This document shows positions 19,373-33,863 of a stretch of 64,000 nucleotides of DNA, piece by piece. Position 1 is the first letter of the stretch. Every line of letters starts with the position of its first letter. The notes under the pieces are model-generated. The model ran no database searches. It was not told the origin of the DNA and saw only the letters and a list, made by a program, of their open reading frames with translations. Location: assembly GCA_900318085.1 (NCBI GenBank), contig ONJF01000016.1:32356-96355 (forward strand). Direction: 5' to 3'. Source of the DNA: an uncultured Bacteroidales bacterium (lineage in GTDB: Bacteria; Bacteroidota; Bacteroidia; Bacteroidales; F082). A program made the position numbers and the translations under genes.

Positions 19373-19419
19373 GCAAAAGTAGTGGTTTTTGGTTGAATCG
19401 CGAAAAAAAAGTATTTTTG
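19373..19419. promoter_or_regulatory. Divergent promoters between yihY-type and rseC-type genes
   Basis: A minus-strand TACTTTTGC box lies at 19381-19373, facing the YihY-family gene. A plus-strand TATTTTTG box lies at 19412-19419, only 4 nt before the ATG at 19424, so its transcript would be leaderless or nearly so. Motif match only. Confidence 0.5.
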
Positions 19420-19423
19420 CGGC

Positions 19424-19840
19424 ATGAAAAACGAAGAAACCATCTCCCACGAAGGCATTGTAACCAAGATCACCGACGACGAACTGGAAATCAAGATACT
19501 GGCACAAAGTGCCTGTGCTGCCTGCCATGCCAAGAGTGCCTGCGGCATGGGTGAACAAGCTGAAAAGATCCTCACCGTGCCACGGCCCAAAGGCAAAGAC
19601 TTCGCCCTCAACCAAAAAGTCAATGTCAGAATGGCTATCGGACAAGGCAACAAGGCAGCGGTTTTGGCGTATCTCATCCCCATCGTGCTGCTTCTGGCGG
19701 TGCTCTTTGTATGCCTCGGGCTTGGCATGAATGAAGGACTAGCCGCCCTCGTCAGCATCATCGCGCTTGTACCTTATTATATTGTCCTTTACCTTAAGCG
19801 CGACCAACTCAAGAAACGGTTCGAATATTCCATCGAATAA
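19424..19840 (+). CDS. rseC: RseC/MucC-like SoxR-reducing-system family membrane protein
   Basis: 138 aa. The N-terminal cytoplasmic part carries cysteines at 31, 34 and 40 (SACAACHAKSACGMG), matching the Cys cluster of RseC. Two membrane helices follow (about 77-97 and 101-121) and then a basic tail. RseC homologues are commonly encoded beside rnf/rsx genes, and the E. coli protein works with the Rsx complex in keeping SoxR reduced. Bacteroidota usually lack that SoxR system, so a role in Rnf assembly or redox maintenance is more likely here; that is inference. It has its own upstream -7 box and precedes the rnf operon promoter by only about 20 nt. Confidence 0.83.
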   Translation: MKNEETISHEGIVTKITDDELEIKILAQSACAACHAKSACGMGEQAEKILTVPRPKGKDFALNQKVNVRMAIGQGNKAAVLAYLIPIVLLLAVLFVCLGLGMNEGLAALVSIIALVPYYIVLYLKRDQLKKRFEYSIE

Positions 19841-19856
19841 AAAACCGAAAAAATCC

Positions 19857-19887
19857 TTTGTCAAAAAAAGGAGTTTCCGTATTTTTG
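19857..19887 (+). promoter_or_regulatory. rnf operon promoter
   Basis: TTTG at 19857-19860, a 19-nt spacer and TATTTTTG at 19880-19887 match the Bacteroidota sigma-70 promoter pattern very well. The rnfB ATG is 40 nt downstream, allowing a normal leader. Confidence 0.7.
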
Positions 19888-19927
19888 CAGGTTTGAAAAC
19901 AGAAAACAAACTCAAAATTCTATACAG

Positions 19928-20872
19928 ATGAGTAACACTTTACTAATTTCTTTAGCGGTTCTCGGAATCCTGGGCGGCGTGCTTGCCGTGGTTCTGTACT
20001 TCGTGGCACAGAAGTTCAAGGTGGAAGAGAACCCTTTGATTGATGAGGCGGAGGCCTGTCTGCCCGGCGCCAACTGCGGCGGCTGCGGCTTTGCAGGCTG
20101 CCGTGCCTTGGCCGAGGCTTGCGTGAAGCAAGCCGCCGAAAAGGGCAACATCGACGGTTTGGCCTGCCCTGGCACCGACATGGGCAAGGTGGCCGCCGTC
20201 CTGGGACTGACCGCTGGCACCTTCGAGCCCAAGATCGCCGTGGTGCGCTGCAACGGTAGCTGCCAGAACTCACCCGCCAAGGTGCATTATGAAGGCGCCG
20301 ACATTTGCGCTTTTGCCAACACCCTTTATGCCGGCGAAGGTGGCTGCTCGAAAGGCTGCCTCGGACTGGGCGACTGCGTGAAGAAGTGTAACTTCGACGC
20401 GTTGCACATCGACAAGGAGACGGGGCTGCCCGTCGTCGACCCCGACAAGTGCGTGGGTTGCGGCGTGTGCGCCAAGACCTGTCCGCGCGGCATCATCGAG
20501 ATCCGTCCTCGCGGCAAGAAAGACCGCCGTGTCTATGTGTGCTGCTCCAACACCGACAAGGGTGCCTTGGTCATCAAGAACTGTTCTGTGGGCTGCATCG
20601 GCTGCCAGAAGTGCTTGAAAGAATGCCCCTTCGAGGCCATCGAGATGCGCGGCAACCTGGCCTACATCGACCCGGCCAAGTGCAAGGCCTGCGGCAAGTG
20701 CGCCAAGGTGTGTCCGCGTGGCACCATCCATGCCGTCAACTTCCCAGCCCCCAAGCCGGAGACGCCAGCCCTTCAAGGTGCTGAACCCGTCGTGAAGCCT
20801 CAACCTCAACCCGAGGCCCAGCCTGTGGAAGTGAAAACTGAAGTCAAACCCGATAACACCGTCACAGCATGA
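19928..20872 (+). CDS. rnfB: Electron transport complex subunit RnfB
   Basis: 314 aa. An N-terminal membrane anchor (about 4-27) is followed by the RnfB 4Fe-4S domain with C44, C50, C53 and C58 in EACLPGANCGGCGFAGC. Further ferredoxin-type CxxCxxCxxxCP motifs follow (CVGCGVCAKTCPRG, CIGCQKCLKECP, CKACGKCAKVCPRG). RnfB is the ferredoxin-facing subunit that brings electrons into the Na+ or H+ translocating ferredoxin:NAD+ oxidoreductase. The last 40 residues are a Pro/Glu/Val-rich tail with no recognisable domain. It opens the rnfBCDGEA operon, an order common in anaerobic Bacteroidota, and overlaps rnfC by 4 nt. Confidence 0.95.
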   Translation: MSNTLLISLAVLGILGGVLAVVLYFVAQKFKVEENPLIDEAEACLPGANCGGCGFAGCRALAEACVKQAAEKGNIDGLACPGTDMGKVAAVLGLTAGTFEPKIAVVRCNGSCQNSPAKVHYEGADICAFANTLYAGEGGCSKGCLGLGDCVKKCNFDALHIDKETGLPVVDPDKCVGCGVCAKTCPRGIIEIRPRGKKDRRVYVCCSNTDKGALVIKNCSVGCIGCQKCLKECPFEAIEMRGNLAYIDPAKCKACGKCAKVCPRGTIHAVNFPAPKPETPALQGAEPVVKPQPQPEAQPVEVKTEVKPDNTVTA

Positions 20873-22224
20873 ACCCGATAAAGACTTTCAAAAAGGGTGG
20901 CGTTCATCCGGAAGAGAACAAACTTTCGGCCGACAAACCCATACAAGACTTCCCGATGCCCAAGCAAATCATCGTCCCGTTGGGACAATGCCTCGGCGCA
21001 CCGGCTGACTGCATCGTCAACAAAGGCGACCGCGTGCTGACGGGTCAGCTCATCGGCACGGCCAAGGGCTTCATCTCGGCCAATGTCCACTCCCCTGCCA
21101 CTGGCACCGTCGCCAAAGTCGATGTGGTGATGGACCATACGGGCTACTACAAGCCTGCCGTCTTCATCGACCGTGAAGAGCAAGACGAATGGGCAGAAGG
21201 CATCATCGTCACCGATGAACTGCTCACCGACATCAAACTCGACTCCAAACAGATCATCGACAAAGTGAAGGAATGCGGCATCGTCGGTATGGGCGGCGCC
21301 ACCTTCCCCACCCATGTCAAGCTGATGGTCCCCGAAGGCAAGAAAGCCGAATATGTCATCATCAACGCGGCCGAATGCGAGCCTTACTTGACCTGCGACT
21401 ACCGTCTGCTTCTTGAGAAGACCCAAGAGTTCCTCATGGGCGTCAAGATCCTCATGAAAGCCGTCAACACCAACAAGGGCATCATCGGCATCGAACAGAA
21501 CAAGATGAAAGCCATCGAACTGTTGGACAAGACCATCAACGAGCACAAGGACTTATATGCCGGAATCGAGGTGCAGCCTCTGAAGACCAAATACCCGCAA
21601 GGCGGCGAAAAACAGATCATCAAGGCCATCACCGGCCGCGAGGTGCCGTCGGGTAAGCTGCCCATCGAGACGGGTTGCGTCGTGGTCAATGTGGCCTCGA
21701 CTTACGCCGTTTACGAAGCCGTGCAGAAGAACAAGCCTTTGATTGAGCGCATCGTCACCGTCACGGGCAAGTCGGTCAAGAACCCCGGCAACTTCCGTGT
21801 TCGTTTCGGCACCCCTGCCGACCTCCTCATCGAGGCCGCCGGAGGTCTGCCAGAGGACATCACCGACATCATCAACGGTGGTCCCATGATGGGCAAGAGC
21901 GTGTCGGTCACCAACTTCCCGTGCATCAAAGGCACCTCGGGCATCCTGCTGATGACCCTTAAGGAAGCGCAAGACCGTCGTCAGACCAACTGCATCCGCT
22001 GCGGTCGCTGTGCCATCGCCTGCCCCATGGGATTGCAGCCCTTCCTGCTCCACAAGGTGGCCAAGCAGAACGATTTCGACGAGACGGAGAAGAACCACAT
22101 CATGGACTGCATCGAATGCGGTTCCTGCGAGTTCACTTGCCCCGCCAACATCCCGCTGCTCGACTACATCCGTTACGGCAAGGCCAAGACCGGCGCCATC
22201 ATCCGTGCGCGTAATCAAAAATGA
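20869..22224 (+). CDS. rnfC: Electron transport complex subunit RnfC
   Basis: 451 aa. RnfC carries FMN and binds NADH. The glycine-rich FMN/NADH region includes GIVGMGGATFPTHVK and AAECEPYLTCDYRLL, a conserved RnfC/NuoF-type core. Two 4Fe-4S sites lie near the C-terminus, CIRCGRCAIACPMG at about residue 373 and CIECGSCEFTCPANIP at about residue 413. Its length is close to that of compact RnfC proteins without the long Ala-rich tail found in some proteobacteria. Its ATG overlaps the rnfB stop (ATGA). A 163-nt gap with an inverted repeat separates it from rnfD. Confidence 0.95.
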   Translation: MNPIKTFKKGGVHPEENKLSADKPIQDFPMPKQIIVPLGQCLGAPADCIVNKGDRVLTGQLIGTAKGFISANVHSPATGTVAKVDVVMDHTGYYKPAVFIDREEQDEWAEGIIVTDELLTDIKLDSKQIIDKVKECGIVGMGGATFPTHVKLMVPEGKKAEYVIINAAECEPYLTCDYRLLLEKTQEFLMGVKILMKAVNTNKGIIGIEQNKMKAIELLDKTINEHKDLYAGIEVQPLKTKYPQGGEKQIIKAITGREVPSGKLPIETGCVVVNVASTYAVYEAVQKNKPLIERIVTVTGKSVKNPGNFRVRFGTPADLLIEAAGGLPEDITDIINGGPMMGKSVSVTNFPCIKGTSGILLMTLKEAQDRRQTNCIRCGRCAIACPMGLQPFLLHKVAKQNDFDETEKNHIMDCIECGSCEFTCPANIPLLDYIRYGKAKTGAIIRARNQK

Positions 22225-22329
22225 TTGCCTCTGGCCACTGGCCTCTGGTTCTTGGCAGCTTCATGATAAAGGAACACATCCAAACCTCTCGTAAAGCTGC
22301 CAGAAGCCAATAGCCAGAAGCCAGAAGCC
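22225..22329. repeat. Imperfect long inverted repeat inside the rnf operon
   Basis: The left arm (22225-22261) repeats CCTCTGG/CCACTGG units and ends in GGCAGCTT. The right arm (22294-22329) starts AAGCTGCC and repeats CCAGAAG/CCAATAG units. The arms pair imperfectly over about 35 nt around a 32-nt loop. It sits between rnfC and rnfD on the transcript. Such CAGAAGCC-type low-complexity palindromes look like dispersed intergenic repeats rather than a protein-coding segment. Confidence 0.7.
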
Positions 22330-22387
22330 TAAACAATTGACTACGTCGAATTACCATTTCAACAATTCAACAATCAACATTTAAAAA

Positions 22388-23383
22388 ATGAACAAATATA
22401 CAATATCCGGTTCGCCGCATGTGCATTCGACGGAAAACACGAGGAAGATCATGTATCGTGTGCTCCTCGCGTTGGTTCCCGCCTTGCTTGTGGCCATCTA
22501 TTATTTCGGCTGGTATGCCCTCCGCCTGACCCTCATCACGGTGGCCACCTGCATGCTGACCGAATGGCTCATTCAGAAATTCCTCATCAAAGGCCCCTTG
22601 ACCATCAACGACGGCTCGGCCGCGCTGACGGGTGTGCTGCTGGCCTTCAATGTGCCCGCCAACCTTCCCATCTGGATGGCCATCGTGGGTAGTGTCGTCG
22701 CCATCGGAATCGGCAAGATGGCTTTCGGCGGCTTGGGCAAGAACCCCTTCAACCCCGCATTGGTAGGCCGTGTGTTCATGCTCGTGTCATTCCCGACCGC
22801 CATGACCACCTGGCCGCAGGCCGCACCTATCTTTGACAAAGGCTTCTTCGCCGACGCCGTCACGGGTCCCACCCCGCTCGGCATCCTGAAAGAAGCAGGT
22901 GTCGGCTCGTTGGCCGAAGCAGGCAACCTACAGTTCCTCGACATGGTGTTAGGTAACCGTGGCGGTGCCTTCGGCGAGGTTTGCGCTATAGCCTTGTTGC
23001 TTGGCGCCATCTACCTCATCTGCCGCAAGGTCATCGAGATCTTTACGCCGTTGAGCATCTTGCTCACCGTGTTCGTCTTCACAGGCATCTGCTATCTCAT
23101 TGACCCAACGCAGTACATCGCTCCTTGGTATCATCTGGTATACGGCGGTCTCATCCTCGGTGCCTTCTTCATGGCTACCGACATGGTGACCTCGCCGATG
23201 ACGATACGAGGCAAGCTCTTGTTTGGCTTTGGCATCGGTGTCATCACGGTCGTCATCCGTCTGTGGGGTGCCTATCCCGAGGGCGTGTCGTTCGCCATCC
23301 TCATCATGAACGCCTTTACGCCGCTCATCAATAAGGCCTTCAAGCCCAAAGTGTTCGGTGTTGTCAAACCCTCTAAAAACTAA
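22388..23383 (+). CDS. rnfD: Electron transport complex subunit RnfD
   Basis: 331 aa, with about 9-10 membrane helices, homologous to NqrB. The FMN-attachment region reads DAVTGPTPLGIL near residue 161, where the usual consensus is SGATPL; the Thr expected to carry phosphoester-linked FMN is kept, though the preceding Ala is Pro. GKNPFNPALVGRVF is another conserved block. RnfD forms the membrane core through which electrons and ions move. It starts after an unusually wide gap for this operon and is followed by rnfG after 5 nt. Confidence 0.94.
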   Translation: MNKYTISGSPHVHSTENTRKIMYRVLLALVPALLVAIYYFGWYALRLTLITVATCMLTEWLIQKFLIKGPLTINDGSAALTGVLLAFNVPANLPIWMAIVGSVVAIGIGKMAFGGLGKNPFNPALVGRVFMLVSFPTAMTTWPQAAPIFDKGFFADAVTGPTPLGILKEAGVGSLAEAGNLQFLDMVLGNRGGAFGEVCAIALLLGAIYLICRKVIEIFTPLSILLTVFVFTGICYLIDPTQYIAPWYHLVYGGLILGAFFMATDMVTSPMTIRGKLLFGFGIGVITVVIRLWGAYPEGVSFAILIMNAFTPLINKAFKPKVFGVVKPSKN

Positions 23384-23388
23384 TCGCC

Positions 23389-24063
23389 ATGGCAAAGAAA
23401 CCATCCACTTTAATTAATATGCTCGTGGCACTGCTCGTCATCGCAGCGGTGTCGGGCGGCGTACTCGGCTTGGTGTATGGCGTGACCAAAGACACCATCG
23501 CCCAAGTCGACCAGAAGAAGAACGAAGCAGCCATCCAAGCCGTGTTGCCTTTGGAGGGTGAGATCACCTATAAGGCCGACACGATGCAATTCTCTTATGA
23601 AGGTGTCAACACGACATTTCCTTGCAACTTGGCCTACGATGCCAACGGCAACTTCCAAGGTGCCGCTGTCAAGACCAGCGAAGGCGGCTTCGGTGGCAAG
23701 ATCGACATGATGGTCGGCTTCCTCGCCGACGGTACCATCAAAGGTACCTCGGTGCTGTCGCACGCTGAGACCCCAGGCCTCGGTGCCAATATGACAGGTA
23801 AATTCGATGACCAGTTCGTCAACAAGAATCCAGCGTCATACAAGCTGACCGTCACCAAGGACGGCGGCGATGTCGACGCCATCACTGCGGCCACTATCAC
23901 CTCGAGAGCCTTCTCGAAGGCGGTCGACAAGGCTTACCAAGCCTTCATGGCCAACAAGGCACAATTCATGAACAACGCTCCCACCAAGGAAGAAGCTCCC
24001 GTCATGGAAGCGGCTCCCGCCGAGGAGAACAATGAAACGGAAGGAGGACAAAGCAATGAGTAA
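23389..24063 (+). CDS. rnfG: Electron transport complex subunit RnfG
   Basis: 224 aa. A single N-terminal membrane helix (about 8-30) precedes a periplasmic FMN-binding domain. The flavinylation motif reads DAITAATITS at residues 163-172, with T169 as the likely site of covalent FMN attachment by ApbE; the consensus Gly is Ala. GGFGGKIDMMVGF and the AETPGLGANMTG stretch are also typical of the family. The last 25 residues are acidic, rich in Glu and Pro, and poorly conserved. The stop codon lies inside the start region of rnfE (8-nt overlap). Confidence 0.94.
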   Translation: MAKKPSTLINMLVALLVIAAVSGGVLGLVYGVTKDTIAQVDQKKNEAAIQAVLPLEGEITYKADTMQFSYEGVNTTFPCNLAYDANGNFQGAAVKTSEGGFGGKIDMMVGFLADGTIKGTSVLSHAETPGLGANMTGKFDDQFVNKNPASYKLTVTKDGGDVDAITAATITSRAFSKAVDKAYQAFMANKAQFMNNAPTKEEAPVMEAAPAEENNETEGGQSNE

Positions 24064-24649
24064 CAACCTGCAAACCTTTACCAAAGGCCTCATCAAAGAA
24101 AACCCCATCCTGGTGCTGCTGTTGGGCTGCTGCCCGACCTTGGCAACGACCACAAGTGCCATCAACGGCATGTCGATGGGCCTGGCCACCACCTTCGTGC
24201 TGGTGCTGTCGAATATCTTCATCTCACTCTTGAAGGGCTTCATCCCCGACAAGGTACGTATCCCCTGCTTCATCGTGGTCATCGCCTCCTTTGTGACGGT
24301 GGTGCAACTCGTCATGCAGGCCTATGTGCCCGACATCTATGAGACCCTCGGCCTGTTCATCCCCCTCATCGTGGTGAACTGCATCGTGCTGGGTCGTGCT
24401 GAGGCTTTTGCCTCGAAGAACCCCGTGTGGCCTTCACTATTGGACGGCCTCGGCATGGGCTTGGGCTTCACCCTTGCCCTGACCCTGTTGGGCTGCATCC
24501 GTGAGTTCCTCGGCAGCGGCTCCATCTTCGGCCTCACCATCCTGCCCGAGACAGCCAACATCCTGGTGTTCATCCTGCCTCCCGGCGCCTTCATCTGCCT
24601 CGGCTTCGTTATCGCTATCGTCAACAAACTCAAAAAAGAAAGTCACTAA
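24056..24649 (+). CDS. rnfE: Electron transport complex subunit RnfE
   Basis: From ATG 24056 the product is 197 aa (MSNNLQTFTKGLIKENP), matching the usual RnfE N-terminus; the ATG at 24032 would add an unnatural KRKEDKA leader. Six membrane helices are visible. LLLGCCPTLATTT contains C25, and IVVNCIVLGRAEAF carries the second conserved Cys. In the RnfA/RnfE (NqrD/NqrE) pair these cysteines are known to hold an intramembrane 2Fe-2S cluster. That partner is disrupted here (see the next gene). It overlaps rnfG by 8 nt and is followed by the rnfA remnant after 3 nt. Confidence 0.94.
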   Translation: MSNNLQTFTKGLIKENPILVLLLGCCPTLATTTSAINGMSMGLATTFVLVLSNIFISLLKGFIPDKVRIPCFIVVIASFVTVVQLVMQAYVPDIYETLGLFIPLIVVNCIVLGRAEAFASKNPVWPSLLDGLGMGLGFTLALTLLGCIREFLGSGSIFGLTILPETANILVFILPPGAFICLGFVIAIVNKLKKESH

Positions 24650-24652
24650 GCC

Positions 24653-25215
24653 ATGAAATACCTCATCATTATCTTATCGACCATCTTGGCCCCTTCCTGG
24701 GCACTTCAAAGAAGACCTCGACCGCATTGGGTATGGGCGCAGCCGTCATCTTCGTGTTGACCCTGGCCACCCTTGTGACATGGCTGACGAACCAGTACAT
24801 CCTGATTCCCTTGAAACTGACCTTCTTGCAGACCATCGCCTTCATCCTCATCATCGCCGCTTTGGTGCAGATGGTGGAGATCATCCTGAAGAAAATCAGT
24901 CCGTCACTGTATACCGCCTTGGGCGTGTTCTTGCCGTTGATTACGACCAACTGCGCCGTCCTGGGCGTGTCGCTGACCGTGGTCACCAAGGAGTTCAACT
25001 ATGGTGGCGTGGCCCACATGCTGAGCCTCGGCGAGTCCATCGTCTATGCCGTCGGCATCGCCCTCGGCTTTGCCATGGCCTTGGTCATCTTCGCCGGCAT
25101 CCGTGAGCACATCGACCTGATGGAGCCTCCCAAGGGCATGAAGGGTACCCCTATCGCCCTGATTACCGCCGGCATCTTGGCCTTGGCGTTCATGGGATTT
25201 ACGGGGATTGTGTGA
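24653..25215 (+). pseudogene. rnfA: rnfA broken by an internal 37-nt deletion
   Basis: The ATG at 24653 opens the expected RnfA start (MKYLIIILSTIL). The sequence then jumps directly to the codons for PFLGTSKKTSTALGMG in another frame. Reading back from intact homologues, the missing part is about 13 codons minus 2 nt, i.e. 37 nt between 24689 and 24690, corresponding to the conserved VNNFVLVxFLGxC segment. The remaining frame continues normally to TGA 25215 and keeps LGVFLPLITTNCAVLGV. The lost segment contains one of the RnfA cysteines that bind the intramembrane 2Fe-2S cluster. A truncated product from TTG 24727 (162 aa) would lack the first helix. A sequencing or assembly deletion is a serious alternative to a true pseudogene. 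Confidence 0.82.
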
Positions 25216-25304: not shown

Positions 25305-25336
25305 AAAAGAGCTGCCTCAAGGCGGCTCTTTTTTTG
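25305..25336 (+). terminator. Rho-independent terminator after the rnf operon
   Basis: AGAGCTGCC (25308-25316), loop TCAA and GGCGGCTCT (25321-25329) form a 9-bp stem with one G-T pair, preceded by A residues and followed by TTTTTTT on the + strand. Confidence 0.85.
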
Positions 25337-25435
25337 TGGTCAGGCGGAAAAAATGTCTTTTGCGGAAAAATTTGTTTGATAAGTCGCAAAAAATATGTTA
25401 CTTGCACCCCGATTTTGAAAAAAACTCTGCCAACC

Positions 25436-28400
25436 ATGAAAAAAGCTTTATCGTTCCTAACCTTCCTATTGTTTGCGATCACGGCAACACACACCGCTGT
25501 GGGACAGACCTTCACCATCATGTCTTCCGACCGCGGCCATATCAGCCTTCACTTCGACCTGGGCGACTTCAGAATCGACACGGTCATGCACGAAGGCGAG
25601 GTGATGCACACCATAACGACAAAAGGCATCGTAGCGCCCAACGACTATGGCCTGCCCGCGCTGCCCACCTTCAACCGCTTCATCGCCATCCCACAAGGCT
25701 CGAAAGCCATCGTGGAAGTCAGGACGCGACGCAGCCAGCGCATGACTGGCATCAACATCACACCGTCGGAAGGCAGTCAAGCCGAGAGCGAGCCCGAACG
25801 GCCGTTCTTCAAAGACCCGAAAGTATATGCCACCAATGCCTTCTACCCTGACGAGAGTTACATGGTGGCCGAGCCACAGCGCTTGCGCGGCGTCGACGTT
25901 ATCCACCTCGGTCTCAGTCCTTTCCAATACAACCCGGTGACACACGAGCTCGCCGTCAACCGCGAACTCGACATCGACATCCGTTTTGAAGGGGGCAACG
26001 GACACTTCGGCGATGACCGTCTGCGCTCCCCCTATTGGGATCCCATCCTGCAGAACAACATCCTGAATTACAGCAGCCTGCCCGACATCGACTACCATGC
26101 CCGCAGGCAGGAGTGGACACGCGGTCGTCTCACTGGTTGCGAATACCTCATCCTGACGCCCAACAACGACGCCTTCATCTCGGCCGCGCAAGAGCTTGCC
26201 AACTACCGCATCCGTCAAGGCATCTTCACCAAGGTGATGAGCATCGGGGAGACAGGTGCCACGACAGCCATGGAGATCAGACAATGGTTCAGGGACATCT
26301 ACAACAGCTGGGACATACCGCCCGTGGCCGTGTGTATCCTCGCCGACCATGGCGAAGACATGGACTTACACATCCCAGCCTACCACACCCTGCATCCCAT
26401 CGAAGACTTTGTCAACACTGACAACCCATACGCCGACATCGACGACGACCGTCTTCCCGACATGTGCTTCTCGCGCCTCGTCGCGAATGACGAATCGGAG
26501 CTGCCGATCTTCATCGGCAAGCAAATCGAATACGAATACACGGCACCCGTCTCGAATCTGGCCTATTACAGCCATCCGCTGACAGCGGCAGCCTGGCAAA
26601 ACACCAGCTGGTTCCAGATTTGCATCGCCACCATCAGCGGCTATCTGACCCAACACGGCAAACAGCCCATCCGCGTCAACGAAATCTACAACGGCGAATT
26701 GGGCACGACATGGTCGACGGCCGCCAACACGAGCGCCGTCACCGACTACTTCGGCCCCAACGGGTTGGGATACATCCCGGCCACACCTGCAGAGCTTGGC
26801 GGATGGACGGGCGGCAATGCAGGACATGTCATCCATGCCATCAACTCAGGAGCCTACCTCATCCAGCACCGCGACCATGGCTGGACGCAGAAGTGGTACC
26901 AACCAGAAATCTATGTCAGCGATTTCGGCGACATCAACAACCCGGGCAAGATGTCGTTCCTCATCTCCGTGAACTGCAAGACAGGACAGTTCGACTACAA
27001 CGGGAACTGCTTCACGGAAGGCCTCATCCGTATGACCCGTGACGGACAAAACGCAGGCATCGTAGGTGCCATCAGCCCTTCGGGGAGAACCTATTCCTTT
27101 GCCAACGACATCTACCTCTGGGGCGTCTGGGACCTCTTTGACCCCGAGTTCCTCCCCGACTACGGTCCCTACGCCAGCCATGTCGCCCAATGGATGCCCT
27201 CATTTGCCAATGTTTCGGGCAAGTACTTCCTTGAGCAAAACGTTTTCCCCAACGCTGACATGACCATGCGTAACACCACCTACAACGCCTACCATTCCCA
27301 CTGCGACGCCTTCCTCCGGCTCTACACCGAGATGCCACAGACCATAGAAGCCATTCATGACCCCTATATCACCATCTTCACTCCTTTCCACATCACGGTT
27401 CCCGAAGGTGTAGAGATTGCTTTGAGCGCCAATTACGGACACAAAGACCACCTGTTGGCTACCGCCACGGGAACGGGGCAAGACCAAGTCATCTATGTCA
27501 TGGACTACATACCCACCAGCACGGTATGCCTAACCATGACGGGGTTGAACTTCATTCGCAGTGAAATATTAATCCCTGTGGCACCCCTAGACAGGCCTCT
27601 CGTCGTGGCCGACAGTGTCGCTTTCAACCAAGGTGCCACCCATCTGCATCATGGGGAATCGGCCACCGTCGACCTCGTCGTCAGGAATGTCGGCGCCTCG
27701 ACAAGTGCCTCGGGTAGTGCCACCATCGCCAACACCACGGGACAACTTCAAATCACACAGGCCTCGACCACTTGGCCTCCCCTGGCACCCGACGAGACTG
27801 CACTTATCGGGGATGCCTTCCAAGTCAGCGTCAGCAGCGACGTCCCCGACGGGACCAACGTTCCCTTCACCATCACGACACAATTCAACGGCGAAAGTTT
27901 CGAGCGCGAGTTCGACCTCGCTGTCATCGCGCCCAACATCAAGGCAGAACTCCTTGCCATTGATGACCATGCCGGCAACGGCAATGGCTACTTGGATGCG
28001 GGCGAGTTTGCCAGCCTCACCTTCCGTCTCGCCAACCACGGCCACTATATCGCCCAAAGCCCGCACATCGCCTTGCATGGCAACGAAGACTACATCAGGG
28101 TGATCACCCCAGAGCCGACCCTCGACAACATGCCCATCGGAGCCACTGTCGACCTCACCTTCGACATCTTCGTCGAGTTCCTCGCCGGAGAGGCTCCTTC
28201 CCTCGACTTCACCCTCACTGCCACCTGCCAAGAGTTGGTGATGGAAAACAGCTTTAGTTTACCGTTAGGTTTCTCCATGGAAAGCTTCGAAATCGGTGAA
28301 TTCAACCCAATGTATTGGATCAACGACCCGAACCATCCCTGGCAGATCGTCGACATCGGTGCATATCACGGCAGCTACTGTGCCCAGTCGGACACCACCA

Positions 28401-28933
28401 TCACTCATGACGAAGCGTCGCATCTCATCTTCAACTACACATCCAATGCCGAAGGCACCCTCTCGTTCTTCTGCAAGGTGTCATCGGAGAACAACTATGA
28501 TTTCCTGGTCTTCTCCGTCGACAGCGTAATGTTAGACCGATGGTCAGGAACAGTGGCCTGGTATGAACACACCTATACCATCCAACCAGGAAGCCACCAA
28601 TACCAATGGAACTACACCAAGGACTATTCCGTCAGCAACGGCGAGGACTGTGCCTGGATTGACTACATCTCGCTTCCACCCTATTTAGACGCCACCGACG
28701 AGAAGTCTGACCTCCCGCTCGACCTGCATCCCAACCCCACCACGGGCCAAATCCATATCGGCTTGGACCTCGATAGCGACTTCATAGTACAAGTCTTCGA
28801 CAGTCAAGGCAAGCTTGTGATGACAGCACATAACGCCCAAATCATCACCCTTGAAGGCATGGCACCAGGACTTTTCCACATCATTGTAGAGAAAGACGGC
28901 CACCGCTGGAGCCGTAGGATAATTAAGATGTAG
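25436..28933 (+). CDS. Gingipain-like C25 cysteine peptidase with T9SS sorting domain
   Basis: Start at ATG 25436 (1165 aa); the open frame extends upstream without a signal peptide. Signal peptide 1-24 (ends AVGQ). A C25 propeptide-like region runs to about 230 (FQYNPVTHELAVNRELDI), then the peptidase domain. HRDHG at 478-482 and NCKTG with C514 place the likely catalytic pair H481/C514 33 residues apart, the same spacing as gingipain RgpB H211/C244. After about residue 690 come CARDB-like domains (NGNGYLDAGEFASLTF), a cleaved-adhesin-like jelly roll (KVSSENNYDFLVFSVD) and a sorting domain from LHPNPTTGQIHIGL. Probably a cell-surface or secreted protease; Arg or Lys preference cannot be told. 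Confidence 0.88.
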   Translation: MKKALSFLTFLLFAITATHTAVGQTFTIMSSDRGHISLHFDLGDFRIDTVMHEGEVMHTITTKGIVAPNDYGLPALPTFNRFIAIPQGSKAIVEVRTRRSQRMTGINITPSEGSQAESEPERPFFKDPKVYATNAFYPDESYMVAEPQRLRGVDVIHLGLSPFQYNPVTHELAVNRELDIDIRFEGGNGHFGDDRLRSPYWDPILQNNILNYSSLPDIDYHARRQEWTRGRLTGCEYLILTPNNDAFISAAQELANYRIRQGIFTKVMSIGETGATTAMEIRQWFRDIYNSWDIPPVAVCILADHGEDMDLHIPAYHTLHPIEDFVNTDNPYADIDDDRLPDMCFSRLVANDESELPIFIGKQIEYEYTAPVSNLAYYSHPLTAAAWQNTSWFQICIATISGYLTQHGKQPIRVNEIYNGELGTTWSTAANTSAVTDYFGPNGLGYIPATPAELGGWTGGNAGHVIHAINSGAYLIQHRDHGWTQKWYQPEIYVSDFGDINNPGKMSFLISVNCKTGQFDYNGNCFTEGLIRMTRDGQNAGIVGAISPSGRTYSFANDIYLWGVWDLFDPEFLPDYGPYASHVAQWMPSFANVSGKYFLEQNVFPNADMTMRNTTYNAYHSHCDAFLRLYTEMPQTIEAIHDPYITIFTPFHITVPEGVEIALSANYGHKDHLLATATGTGQDQVIYVMDYIPTSTVCLTMTGLNFIRSEILIPVAPLDRPLVVADSVAFNQGATHLHHGESATVDLVVRNVGASTSASGSATIANTTGQLQITQASTTWPPLAPDETALIGDAFQVSVSSDVPDGTNVPFTITTQFNGESFEREFDLAVIAPNIKAELLAIDDHAGNGNGYLDAGEFASLTFRLANHGHYIAQSPHIALHGNEDYIRVITPEPTLDNMPIGATVDLTFDIFVEFLAGEAPSLDFTLTATCQELVMENSFSLPLGFSMESFEIGEFNPMYWINDPNHPWQIVDIGAYHGSYCAQSDTTITHDEASHLIFNYTSNAEGTLSFFCKVSSENNYDFLVFSVDSVMLDRWSGTVAWYEHTYTIQPGSHQYQWNYTKDYSVSNGEDCAWIDYISLPPYLDATDEKSDLPLDLHPNPTTGQIHIGLDLDSDFIVQVFDSQGKLVMTAHNAQIITLEGMAPGLFHIIVEKDGHRWSRRIIKM

Positions 28934-29087
28934 CTTGTTTGGGCGCCCCGTTCTACACCCCCATAGGCTTGTTTCAACGGAAAAAAATTCGCTTTTCGCC
29001 AGAAAAACATTTCTTATTCCAAAAAAAGTGCGTATTTTTACGCGCTTTTTTATATTTATAGGTCTTATCATCAAAACAACAAGCCAT

Positions 29088-32000
29088 ATGAAAAACTGTT
29101 TACGCTCCCTGTCAGTCGCCATCTTGCTGCTTACGGCTATGGCCCTCAACGCCCAGACGCGCGACCTCAACTTCAGCAACACGGCCCCTCGTGAAGGCCT
29201 CAGCGTAGAACAAAACACCCGTACGGGATTACAAATGCGCCATGCCTTGAAACACATGAGCATCGTCAACATCACCGACAACGGATACAACGGCGACGTC
29301 ATCGAAGGCGGCACTGGCATCACATTGCCTGCCAACCCGGGCGAGCCCAACCTGCCGGCTTTCAGCCAATTCGTGGCCATACCTAATGGAGCCACTGCCC
29401 ACATCGAGATGGGCTTCCGCAGCATGACCACCATGGAGAACGTCGACCTGCTGCCCGCCGCCCCCATCAAATTCGACACCGACGACAGCCCTAACACATA
29501 CGATCGGAACACGAGCATCTACAACAAGAACGCGTTCTTCCCCGAACAGACCGTGACCGTCAGCGAGCCTTTCAGCCTGCGTGGCGTGCAGACCGTGGCC
29601 GTCACCGTGGTGCCCTACCAATACAACCCCGTCACGAAAGAGCTGCGCATCTATGACGATCTGCAATTCGGCATCCGTTTCGACGGTGGCAACGGCGAGT
29701 TTGGCGACACGCGCCTGCGTTCCCCCTATTGGGACCCCATCCTCATGCAGAACCTGGCCAACTACAACCAACTGCCCGTTATCGATTATGAAGCCCGCAT
29801 GCAGGAATGGGTCAACAACCGTCCCACGGGTTGCGAATATCTCATCGTCATCCCCAACAACGAGAGCTTCCGCCAATATGCCAACCAACTGCGCGACTAC
29901 CGCATCCAGCAGGGCATTCTCACCGAGGTGAAGAGCCTCAGCGACATGGGTTGCACCACCACCGACCAGATGAGGAATTACTTCCACAACGCCTACAACA
30001 CATGGGACATCCCACCCGTTGCCGTGCTGCTTTTGGGAGACCACAACACCAACATGGGTGCGGGCATCCCTGCCGAATACACTTTCCACTCCTACGACTA
30101 CGGTAACTGCATCACCGACAACGGCTATGCCGACGTCACGGGCGACATGTTGCCTGAGATGGCTTTCTCACGCCTCGTGGCCGCCAACGCCAACGAAGCC
30201 CAAATGATGGTGAGCAAACAGCTGGAATACGAATTCACCAACCCCAACATGGACGCGGCCTCCTACGACCACCCCATCACCGCCTTGGGCTGGCAGACAC
30301 AACGCTGGTTCCAGATCTGCTCTGAAGTGGTGGGCGGTTATTGGCGCAACCAAGGCAAACACCCGGTGCGCATCAATGCCATCTATAGTGGCACGCCTGG
30401 CAACCAATGGTCGAGCAACCAAAACACCTATATGGTCGTCAACTACTTCGGTCCCAACGGATTAGGCTACATCCCTGCCACGCCATCGGAACTCGGCGGT
30501 TGGACAGGCGGTACTGCTGCACAAGTCGTGAATGCCGTCAACAGCGGCTGCATGCTTCTGCAACACCGCGACCACGGCTACTACCAAGGCTGGGGCGAGC
30601 CTGACTTCAGCACCAGCAATGTGGCCCAGATGAACAATGTGGGCAAATTGACCTTCGTCAACACCATCAACTGCCAGACCGGCACCTTCGACTACAACAG
30701 TGGCTGCCTCATCGAGGCCTTCATGCGTCGCACCAGCGGCGGACAGAACGCCGGCGCCGTAGGCTGCATCGGTCCCACGCAGACCTCCTACTCCTTCGTC
30801 AACGACGCCTATGCTTGGGGCATGTACGACCAATATGACCCGCAGTTCATGCCCGACTACGGTCCCTACGCCGAATATGAAGGCAACTGGAGACCCGCTT
30901 TCGGCAATGTGGCCGGCAAATACTTCCTTGCCCAAAGCAACTGGCCCTACAACACACAAAACAAGGCCATCACATACAAAATGTTCACCGCACACTGCGA
31001 CGCATTCCTTACCCTCTACACGCAAGTGCCTACCGCGATGAATGTCACACATCCCGCACAAATCACCGCCTCCACCACGAGCATCAACGTTACCGCCCCG
31101 CAAGGTGCCATCATCGCCTTGACGCGCAACAACAACATCCTTGCCGTGGCCACCGCCACTGGCGGCAGCCAAAGCATCACTTTCCAGGCCCAGCCTTCCA
31201 ATACCGACATCACCATCGTGGCTACCAAGCAAGACAAGCTCCGTTATGTGGGCTCCATCCATGTCATCAGCGAGCCTTCGCTGACCTTGACACAAGTGAC
31301 CGTCAACGATGGCAACAACGGACAACTCGAATATTCCGAGTCGGCCTCATTCGACATGAGCATCAAGAACACGGGCGACCAGGCTTCGACCATAGCCACG
31401 GCCACCCTTACCACCCGCTCATCGGAATATGTCACCATCACCAACAACACGGCCTCCATCCCCGCATTAACTCCCAACCAGACCACCGACCTCACCCAGG
31501 TGTTTGGCGTTACAGTTGCCGACAATGTGCTCAACGAGACCCGTCTGCAATTCACCCTCACCATGGTGAGCGGCAGTCACACTTGGACCTCCGACTTCAG
31601 TGTGAACGCCTATGCCCCAGTGCTGAAAATCCAGGACGGCATGACCATCGATGACGGTGGCATTAATAAGGCAGGCGGCAATGGCAACGGTCGCATCGAC
31701 CCAGGCGAGACCGTCGAGATCACCTTCGCCTATGCCAACAATGGCGGTGCAACGGCCAACGATGTCACGGCTACTCTGACCGCACAGCCCTCACAATACA
31801 TCACCATTACCGTCCCAACAGTCAACACACCAGTAGCCGAGGCTGGCGACATCGTTGCTGTGACCTATACGGTAAATGTAGCCGCCGACATGCCTAAAGG
31901 CGAGGCCGCCGTGTTCACACTCGCCGTCACCTCGGGTGCCTACAGCCACACACAAACCTTCTCGCACCGTGTCGGCCTTGAAATCGCCTCTTTCGAGAAC

Positions 32001-33863
32001 GGCTTTAATGGCTTTGAATGGGAAAACGACCCCGAGCATCCTTGGACTCTCTCCACGACAGAGTACTATTCAGGAGAATACAGCCTGCAGTCGGGCACCA
32101 TCGGGAACAACCAAACCTCGACATTGAGTCTGTCGTTCAACGTGGAGAACCCCACCGATGAAATCCTGTTCTACAGAAAAACCGACTGCCAAGAGGGCGA
32201 CTACCTCAAGTTCTATATCGACGGCGAACTCATGCAGCAATGGAGTGGAAGTCTCAACTGGCGTGAGATGTCCATCCCCGTCACCCAAGGCGAGCATGTA
32301 TTCACCTGGGCCTATGAGAAAGACGGCAACGGCAGCAGCGGACAAGACCATGTGTGGATCGATGACATCCTCTTCCCGTTGCGTCACATCACCTTTGGCT
32401 GCAACGCCGGTGCCGACCAAGAGCGTTGTCAAGAAGCCGTCCAGATGACCGCCGACGCAGTGGGCTATGAGACCCTCCTTTGGACCACTTCGGGAGACGG
32501 CAGTTTCGACCAAAACGACATCCTCACCCCCAGCTACACGCCCGGTGACCAAGACCTTGAACACAAGACCGTCACGCTCACCCTCACTGCCACCAACGCC
32601 GAAGGAGAGACTTTGAGTGACGAGGTAGTCATCAACTTCCACGAAGCCGCCAGCATCGTCATGGAGACTGAAGGCGAGATTTGCGAAGGCGAAAACTTTG
32701 AACTCTACGCTCAAGTCAGTGAGACAGGCCTCATCAACTGGGCCACCTCGGGCGATGGTAGCTTTGACCGTCCCACCGACATTAATGCCAACTACACCCC
32801 TGGCGAGCAAGACAAGGCGAATGGACAAGTCACCCTCACGCTCAACGCTTTATCGGCTTACGGCTGTGGTGATGCCCAACAAGACATCCTGCTGACCATC
32901 CATCCGCTGCAACACACCGAGTTTGAAATGGCCTCCTGTGGTGCCTACTCTTGGAACGGCATCGAATACAGCGAGCCTGGCGACTACGAGCAGGTGCTTA
33001 CCAGCATCCACGGCTGCGACTCGACCGTAGTGATGCACTTCTCACTCATCGACAGTTACAACATTGAAACAGAAGAGACAGCCTGCGAAAGCTATGTTTG
33101 GGATGGTGAGACGCTCACCGAAAGCGGCACTTATGAGCGCACCTTCACCTCGTTACACGGCTGCGACTCGACCGTGATGATGCACCTGACCATCAACGAC
33201 ATCAAATGGACTGAATTTGAAGCCGAAGCCTGCGACACTTATGAATGGGACGGCGTCACCTATACCGAAAGCGGCGACTACGAGCAAGTCTACAGCACCA
33301 CGATGGGTTGCGACAGCATCGTCACCATGCGCTTGACCGTCAACACGGCTCCCATCATCGAAGCTATCAGCGGTGACACAGATGTCGACGTACGCCTTGT
33401 TCCTACGAGCCTCTATTCGATTGAAGCACCTAACGCGGCTATGGCCTGTGAATGGAGCATCACGCCTGAAGAAGCCGGCATCATCACTGGTGAGGGCACC
33501 TCTGCCAACATCATCTGGAGCGACAACTACAAAGGCCTTGCCGTCATCACGGTGGAAGGCGACAACAACTGCGGCCATGACACGAAGACCTTGTCGGTCA
33601 ATGTGAAGAACTCAACCGGTGTCGACGAATTCGGTAACGGTGTCAAGATCTACCCCAATCCGAGCAACGGCCTCGTCAACATTGAAACGGAAGGCCTGCA
33701 ACGCCTGACCGTGACCAACGCCATGGGACAGGTTGTTTACGACAACGAAGTCTCTGGAAAGAAAGTCCAGATCGAGATGTCACAGTTCGGTGTGGGCACC
33801 TACCTTATCCGCATTTATACTGAAAGCGGCATCCTTGTGAAACGCATCAATATCATGAGATAA
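29088..33863 (+). CDS. Gingipain-like C25 cysteine peptidase with Cys-containing repeats and T9SS sorting domain
   Basis: ATG 29088 gives 1591 aa with signal peptide MKNCLRSLSVAILLLTAMAL ending NAQ; the frame continues upstream without a sensible start. The layout follows the first paralogue: propeptide region, C25 domain with H496 (HRDHG) and C529 (NCQTG) at 33-residue spacing, CARDB-like domains, and a cleaved-adhesin-like domain (near 1010-1150). Uniquely among the three peptidases it then has two SGDGSFD/YTPG modules and three repeats of the YSWNG, SGDYEQ, GCDSTV type before a T9SS sorting domain from IYPNPSNGLVNIET. Genes at 33895, 37605 and 40491 follow at 21-41 nt, probably as one operon. 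Confidence 0.88.
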   Translation: MKNCLRSLSVAILLLTAMALNAQTRDLNFSNTAPREGLSVEQNTRTGLQMRHALKHMSIVNITDNGYNGDVIEGGTGITLPANPGEPNLPAFSQFVAIPNGATAHIEMGFRSMTTMENVDLLPAAPIKFDTDDSPNTYDRNTSIYNKNAFFPEQTVTVSEPFSLRGVQTVAVTVVPYQYNPVTKELRIYDDLQFGIRFDGGNGEFGDTRLRSPYWDPILMQNLANYNQLPVIDYEARMQEWVNNRPTGCEYLIVIPNNESFRQYANQLRDYRIQQGILTEVKSLSDMGCTTTDQMRNYFHNAYNTWDIPPVAVLLLGDHNTNMGAGIPAEYTFHSYDYGNCITDNGYADVTGDMLPEMAFSRLVAANANEAQMMVSKQLEYEFTNPNMDAASYDHPITALGWQTQRWFQICSEVVGGYWRNQGKHPVRINAIYSGTPGNQWSSNQNTYMVVNYFGPNGLGYIPATPSELGGWTGGTAAQVVNAVNSGCMLLQHRDHGYYQGWGEPDFSTSNVAQMNNVGKLTFVNTINCQTGTFDYNSGCLIEAFMRRTSGGQNAGAVGCIGPTQTSYSFVNDAYAWGMYDQYDPQFMPDYGPYAEYEGNWRPAFGNVAGKYFLAQSNWPYNTQNKAITYKMFTAHCDAFLTLYTQVPTAMNVTHPAQITASTTSINVTAPQGAIIALTRNNNILAVATATGGSQSITFQAQPSNTDITIVATKQDKLRYVGSIHVISEPSLTLTQVTVNDGNNGQLEYSESASFDMSIKNTGDQASTIATATLTTRSSEYVTITNNTASIPALTPNQTTDLTQVFGVTVADNVLNETRLQFTLTMVSGSHTWTSDFSVNAYAPVLKIQDGMTIDDGGINKAGGNGNGRIDPGETVEITFAYANNGGATANDVTATLTAQPSQYITITVPTVNTPVAEAGDIVAVTYTVNVAADMPKGEAAVFTLAVTSGAYSHTQTFSHRVGLEIASFENGFNGFEWENDPEHPWTLSTTEYYSGEYSLQSGTIGNNQTSTLSLSFNVENPTDEILFYRKTDCQEGDYLKFYIDGELMQQWSGSLNWREMSIPVTQGEHVFTWAYEKDGNGSSGQDHVWIDDILFPLRHITFGCNAGADQERCQEAVQMTADAVGYETLLWTTSGDGSFDQNDILTPSYTPGDQDLEHKTVTLTLTATNAEGETLSDEVVINFHEAASIVMETEGEICEGENFELYAQVSETGLINWATSGDGSFDRPTDINANYTPGEQDKANGQVTLTLNALSAYGCGDAQQDILLTIHPLQHTEFEMASCGAYSWNGIEYSEPGDYEQVLTSIHGCDSTVVMHFSLIDSYNIETEETACESYVWDGETLTESGTYERTFTSLHGCDSTVMMHLTINDIKWTEFEAEACDTYEWDGVTYTESGDYEQVYSTTMGCDSIVTMRLTVNTAPIIEAISGDTDVDVRLVPTSLYSIEAPNAAMACEWSITPEEAGIITGEGTSANIIWSDNYKGLAVITVEGDNNCGHDTKTLSVNVKNSTGVDEFGNGVKIYPNPSNGLVNIETEGLQRLTVTNAMGQVVYDNEVSGKKVQIEMSQFGVGTYLIRIYTESGILVKRINIMR

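Follow-up and report, generated by a model that had tools for sequence, protein, structure and literature searches.

A 37-nt frame-breaking gap in rnfA of an uncultured Bacteroidales genome, very probably a local error of metagenome assembly

Results

The rnf genes of the window

The window, by which we mean the whole stretch of 64,000 nt analysed here, carries rnfB, rnfC, rnfD, rnfG, rnfE and rnfA on its forward strand, the last of these split as assembled into two reading frames.

19928..20872, + strand: rnfB, intact (ORF list, gene screen)
20869..22224, + strand: rnfC, intact (ORF list, gene screen)
22388..23383, + strand: rnfD, intact (ORF list, gene screen)
23389..24063, + strand: rnfG, intact (ORF list, gene screen)
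24056..24649, + strand: rnfE, intact, start taken as ATG 24056, longest ORF from 24032 (ORF list, profile, gene screen)
24653..25215, + strand: rnfA as assembled, in two frames (ORF reading; PF02508 match from profile position 22)
24653-24760, + strand: first rnfA frame, 35 codons and then a stop
to the stop at 25213-25215, + strand: rest of the RnfA sequence, in another frame
24688..24689, + strand: junction without the 37 nt (codons 13-25, Cys25 included) found in intact congeners, very probably an assembly artefact

The start codon of rnfA, ATG 24653, closely follows the rnfE stop (24647-24649). The first 12 codons read MKYLIIILSTIL, after which the sequence runs out of frame to TGA 24758-24760 (35 aa), and the PFLGTSKK continuation lies in a different frame, where TTG 24727 is the earliest start codon listed (162 aa). 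An earlier sequence-only reading had proposed a 37-nt internal deletion, and the same gap was indeed obtained in each of three alignments with intact congeners. That reading had put the deletion at 24689/24690, which agrees with our 24688/24689 because one G fits on either side of the junction. The missing block, given there as VNNFVLVxFLGxC, reads VNNVIFSQFLGIC in the genus (codons 13-25). It does hold a cysteine of the metal site, as had been claimed, since Cys25 falls within these codons; the second cysteine is kept within TTNCAVLG (Cys113 in C. tetanomorphum). The RnfA/RnfE metal site of C. tetanomorphum is described as having four invariant cysteines, Cys25 among them, and is modelled as a single iron (PMC9588780); a review gives the site as a [2Fe-2S] cluster (PMC12174285).

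What is left of rnfA is well preserved. The PF02508 profile matched the window gene with 170.3 bits, above the curated cut-off, over profile positions 22-173 of 174, and the sequence left after the gap is 99% identical to that of intact congeners. The gap is clean, its flanks are intact and the window contains no Ns. A search for the exact junction sequence in viral contigs gave no match, which says little about a bacterial gene. The claim that all other rnf genes are intact held in the gene screen for the five others of the window.

Several further features were seen around these genes and elsewhere in the assembly. The rnfC-rnfD spacer (22225-22387) is highly variable in congeners, with AGC-rich repeats resembling a family of short words and large differences in length. 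In one congener (G075, locus L065), an insertion of several hundred bases between rnfD and rnfG, with what seems to be a small extra reading frame, is absent in the two relatives compared. Downstream of rnfA, 25334-33863 holds two large adjacent ORFs of 1199 and 1642 aa that, by eye, resemble peptidases that are secreted and carry a C-terminal sorting domain. Another contig of the same genome (C36, 16787-17958, minus strand; L002, L004) carries a second pair of PF02508 genes, which we take to be, probably, NqrD and NqrE of an Nqr operon; the organism thus seems to carry both pumps, Rnf and Nqr.

rnfA and the rnf operon across the genus

The genome to which the window belongs (G000) comprises 3.24 Mb in 93 contigs and is 100% complete and 3.1% contaminated. 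We searched 99 genomes of the genus with an intact 199-aa RnfA at an E value cut-off of 1e-10. Intact rnfA was found in 86 of them. The gene is broken within a contig in three (G000, G074 and G054), occurs only as pieces cut by contig ends in three (G003, G007 and G068, the last piece starting at base 3) and has only a much weaker best match in another three (G058, G063 and G091); four genomes had no match at this cut-off. Several of the records with close rnfA genes come from ruminant or horse gut samples, and G000 is presumably a gut metagenome assembly.

The six rnf genes were then screened for frame-breaking lesions in 61 operons, the window and 60 congener regions. The screen left out contig-end truncations and secondary hits (rnfB in L059, L069 and L086; rnfC in nine loci; rnfD in L061 and L081) and did not count L074 rnfG, which is in one frame with a divergent end. 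It had no rnfB match in 7/61 loci and no rnfC match in 2/61, and one of the two rnf copies of G013 was screened. Five events were found, in 4/61 operons:

window rnfA: -37 nt
G074 rnfE: -26 nt
G074 rnfA: -16 nt
G054 rnfA: -59 nt
G075 rnfB: -56 nt

None of these lengths is a multiple of three, in a screen that was blind to in-frame gaps and to breaks near gene ends. Three of the five events fall in rnfA, which makes up 12% of the compared length (binomial P ~0.014); with the index case left out, the figure is two of four (binomial P ~0.07).

The remaining coding sequence of rnfA bears no sign of disuse. Over its last 162 codons, comparison with five intact relatives gave 17-30 synonymous and 0-1 non-synonymous codon differences. 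The G054 gene (L067; 15 synonymous, 27 non-synonymous) was dropped from this comparison because it has a gap of its own. Neither these five comparisons nor the five other rnf genes, all intact, revealed relaxed selection or decay in rnfA or the operon, as would be expected of an artefact or of a deletion so recent that it has left no trace.

Lesions in rpoB and other control genes

The essential gene rpoB was matched in 77 of the 99 genomes, full length and in one frame in 67, cut by a contig end in four and broken inside a contig in six:

G000: -128 nt, without Ns
G079: -29 nt, without Ns
G057: -101 nt, without Ns
G068: -86 nt, without Ns
G053 (contig C20, L220): +40 nt, without Ns
G006: lesion at two Ns

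Five rpoB lesions in 77 genomes are thus free of Ns, and the sixth lies at Ns. In the genome of the window, the 128-nt gap splits rpoB into two frames (contig C93; L208, bases 19400-23700), and no second rpoB was found there besides this broken copy. The +40 insertion is a duplicate of the bases adjoining the join, the mirror image of the gaps. Lesion density is similar in the two sets, with five events per ~305 kb of rnf genes and five without Ns per ~286 kb of rpoB, both lengths being upper bounds as some copies are partial. Outside these counts, G074 has an additional 80-nt gap in another gene, confirmed against G083, and G057 a 133-nt event that is based on a single relative at ~74% identity.

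Contig ends also cut rnfA and EF-G genes. In G000, one part of EF-G lies on contig C57 and the other on C30, with an exact overlap of 94 nt, and the in-frame stop noted among the EF-G matches is the terminal stop. This split lends an artefact weak support, because the 4.5-kb contig C16 (L230) holds an EF-G match that is full length and scores higher; this match could be a paralogue, or C16 could be foreign to the bin.

Junction features

Junction homology is 0-2 nt at all nine gaps in rnf genes and rpoB, which rules out deletion between direct repeats. At four of the five rnf junctions, the left 25-mer ranks in the top 3-5% of the operon for sharing between species, two of these four being the identical 25-mer; the right flanks do not stand out. 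At three of the five rpoB lesions, one flank is in the top 2.5-3.3% for sharing and the other flanks are ordinary. Of the two rpoB gaps with nearly coincident left edges, in G000 and G079, just one comes after a widely shared stretch.

Discussion

The main conclusion of this study is that the 37-nt gap in rnfA is, in all likelihood, a local error of metagenome assembly. We judge it so because rpoB, of which no other copy was found in this assembly, is likewise broken by a frame-shifting gap of 128 nt, and further support comes from the recurrence of lesions of the same class in several conserved genes of congeners. The living organism would then have an intact rnfA. The sequence-only reading had left the choice between an artefact and a very recent loss of Rnf; the artefact is the option that the evidence favours, while nothing beyond the gap itself speaks for a loss, with the rest of rnfA undecayed and the other five genes intact. 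As to how such a gap might arise, stretches that are near-identical among co-occurring species of the genus may tangle the assembly, so that the true path would break at the tangled stretch. The two contig ends could then be placed side by side without Ns, and bases would be lost at the join, or duplicated where the contig ends overlap, as the insertion in G053 rpoB may illustrate. That the software joins contig ends in this way is something that we infer, because the junctions are only partly linked to sequence shared between species. Some observations sit less easily with an artefact: rnfA is over-represented among the rnf events, the left edge of the gap is common to the window and G074 rnfA, and in G000 rpoC is in a single frame. 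Furthermore, no second such break was found in the window where relatives allowed comparison, in a scan that did not count antisense ORFs and single-source events.

A genuine, very recent deletion that inactivated rnfA, either in the sequenced population or in the strain followed by the assembly, is an improbable alternative. It would account for a clean gap with intact flanks in a window free of Ns, and a very recent event, too, would be expected to show no decay. However, an equal lesion in the only rpoB of the same assembly cannot be explained in this way, since a living cell could not lose that gene. We consider it still less probable that real deletions recur at the start of rnfA in the genus and leave some of the cells with Rnf turned off. 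Gaps within the first 200 nt of the gene in 3/92 genomes with a true rnfA, two of them with the shared left edge, are what such a site would produce, and, if it were real, gut populations would contain both cells whose Rnf ion pump works and cells that lack a working one. Yet the three rnfA gaps have junction homologies of 1, 0 and 0 nt and thus offer no repeat for slippage, G000 and G079 have rpoB gaps whose left edges likewise nearly coincide (≤2 bases apart), and lesions are no more frequent per unit length in the whole rnf operon than in rpoB. The comparison with rpoB thus gives no support to a hotspot peculiar to Rnf, though rnfA exceeds its share. That the gene works as assembled, by starting further downstream or by programmed frameshifting, is the least credible proposal, and we give it almost no weight. 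The second frame is open and offers starts at TTG 24727 and ATG 24733, but no start is listed before the former in that frame, and codons 13-25, with the family's invariant Cys25, are restored by neither route. Rescue through another start or frame was ruled out on this ground, the Cys25 block still being missing.

A local assembly error, the explanation that we prefer for the rnfA gap, carries a caution for work on uncultured bacteria. Small gaps without Ns, at ~1.6-1.7 per 100 kb of conserved coding sequence compared, can mimic gene loss, and an essential gene of the same assembly offers a quick test for false gene loss.

The gap can be set against published accounts of assembly error. In the portions of the work by Chen et al. 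(2020, PMC7111523) that bear on this, local assembly errors in metagenome-assembled genomes are said to lead to incorrect protein-coding genes in databases, such errors are suspected to be prominent in IDBA-UD assemblies, and co-occurring close strains are named as the main cause of fragmentation. In a rumen compendium, single samples were assembled with idba_ud, and MEGAHIT served for the co-assemblies (PMC6785717). The rnfA gap, very probably an error itself, resembles the errors of Chen et al. in lying within a contig and yielding a wrong gene; unlike them, it is a small deletion without Ns, a kind that those portions do not describe. A parallel can also be drawn with Cooley and Wright (2024, PMC11017572), according to whom, in the part of the article concerned, many putative pseudogenes are assembly errors. 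Both cases involve seemingly broken genes that are due to assembly, very probably so in ours, whereas that account concerns frameshifts and internal stops generally and ours concerns gaps that may lie at stretches shared between species. As for the gene itself, the window copy agrees with RnfA of the Rnf complex (PF02508) in its gene order with the other rnf genes, in its profile match and in its remaining sequence, and it differs, as assembled, in the lack of codons 13-25 and, with them, of Cys25.
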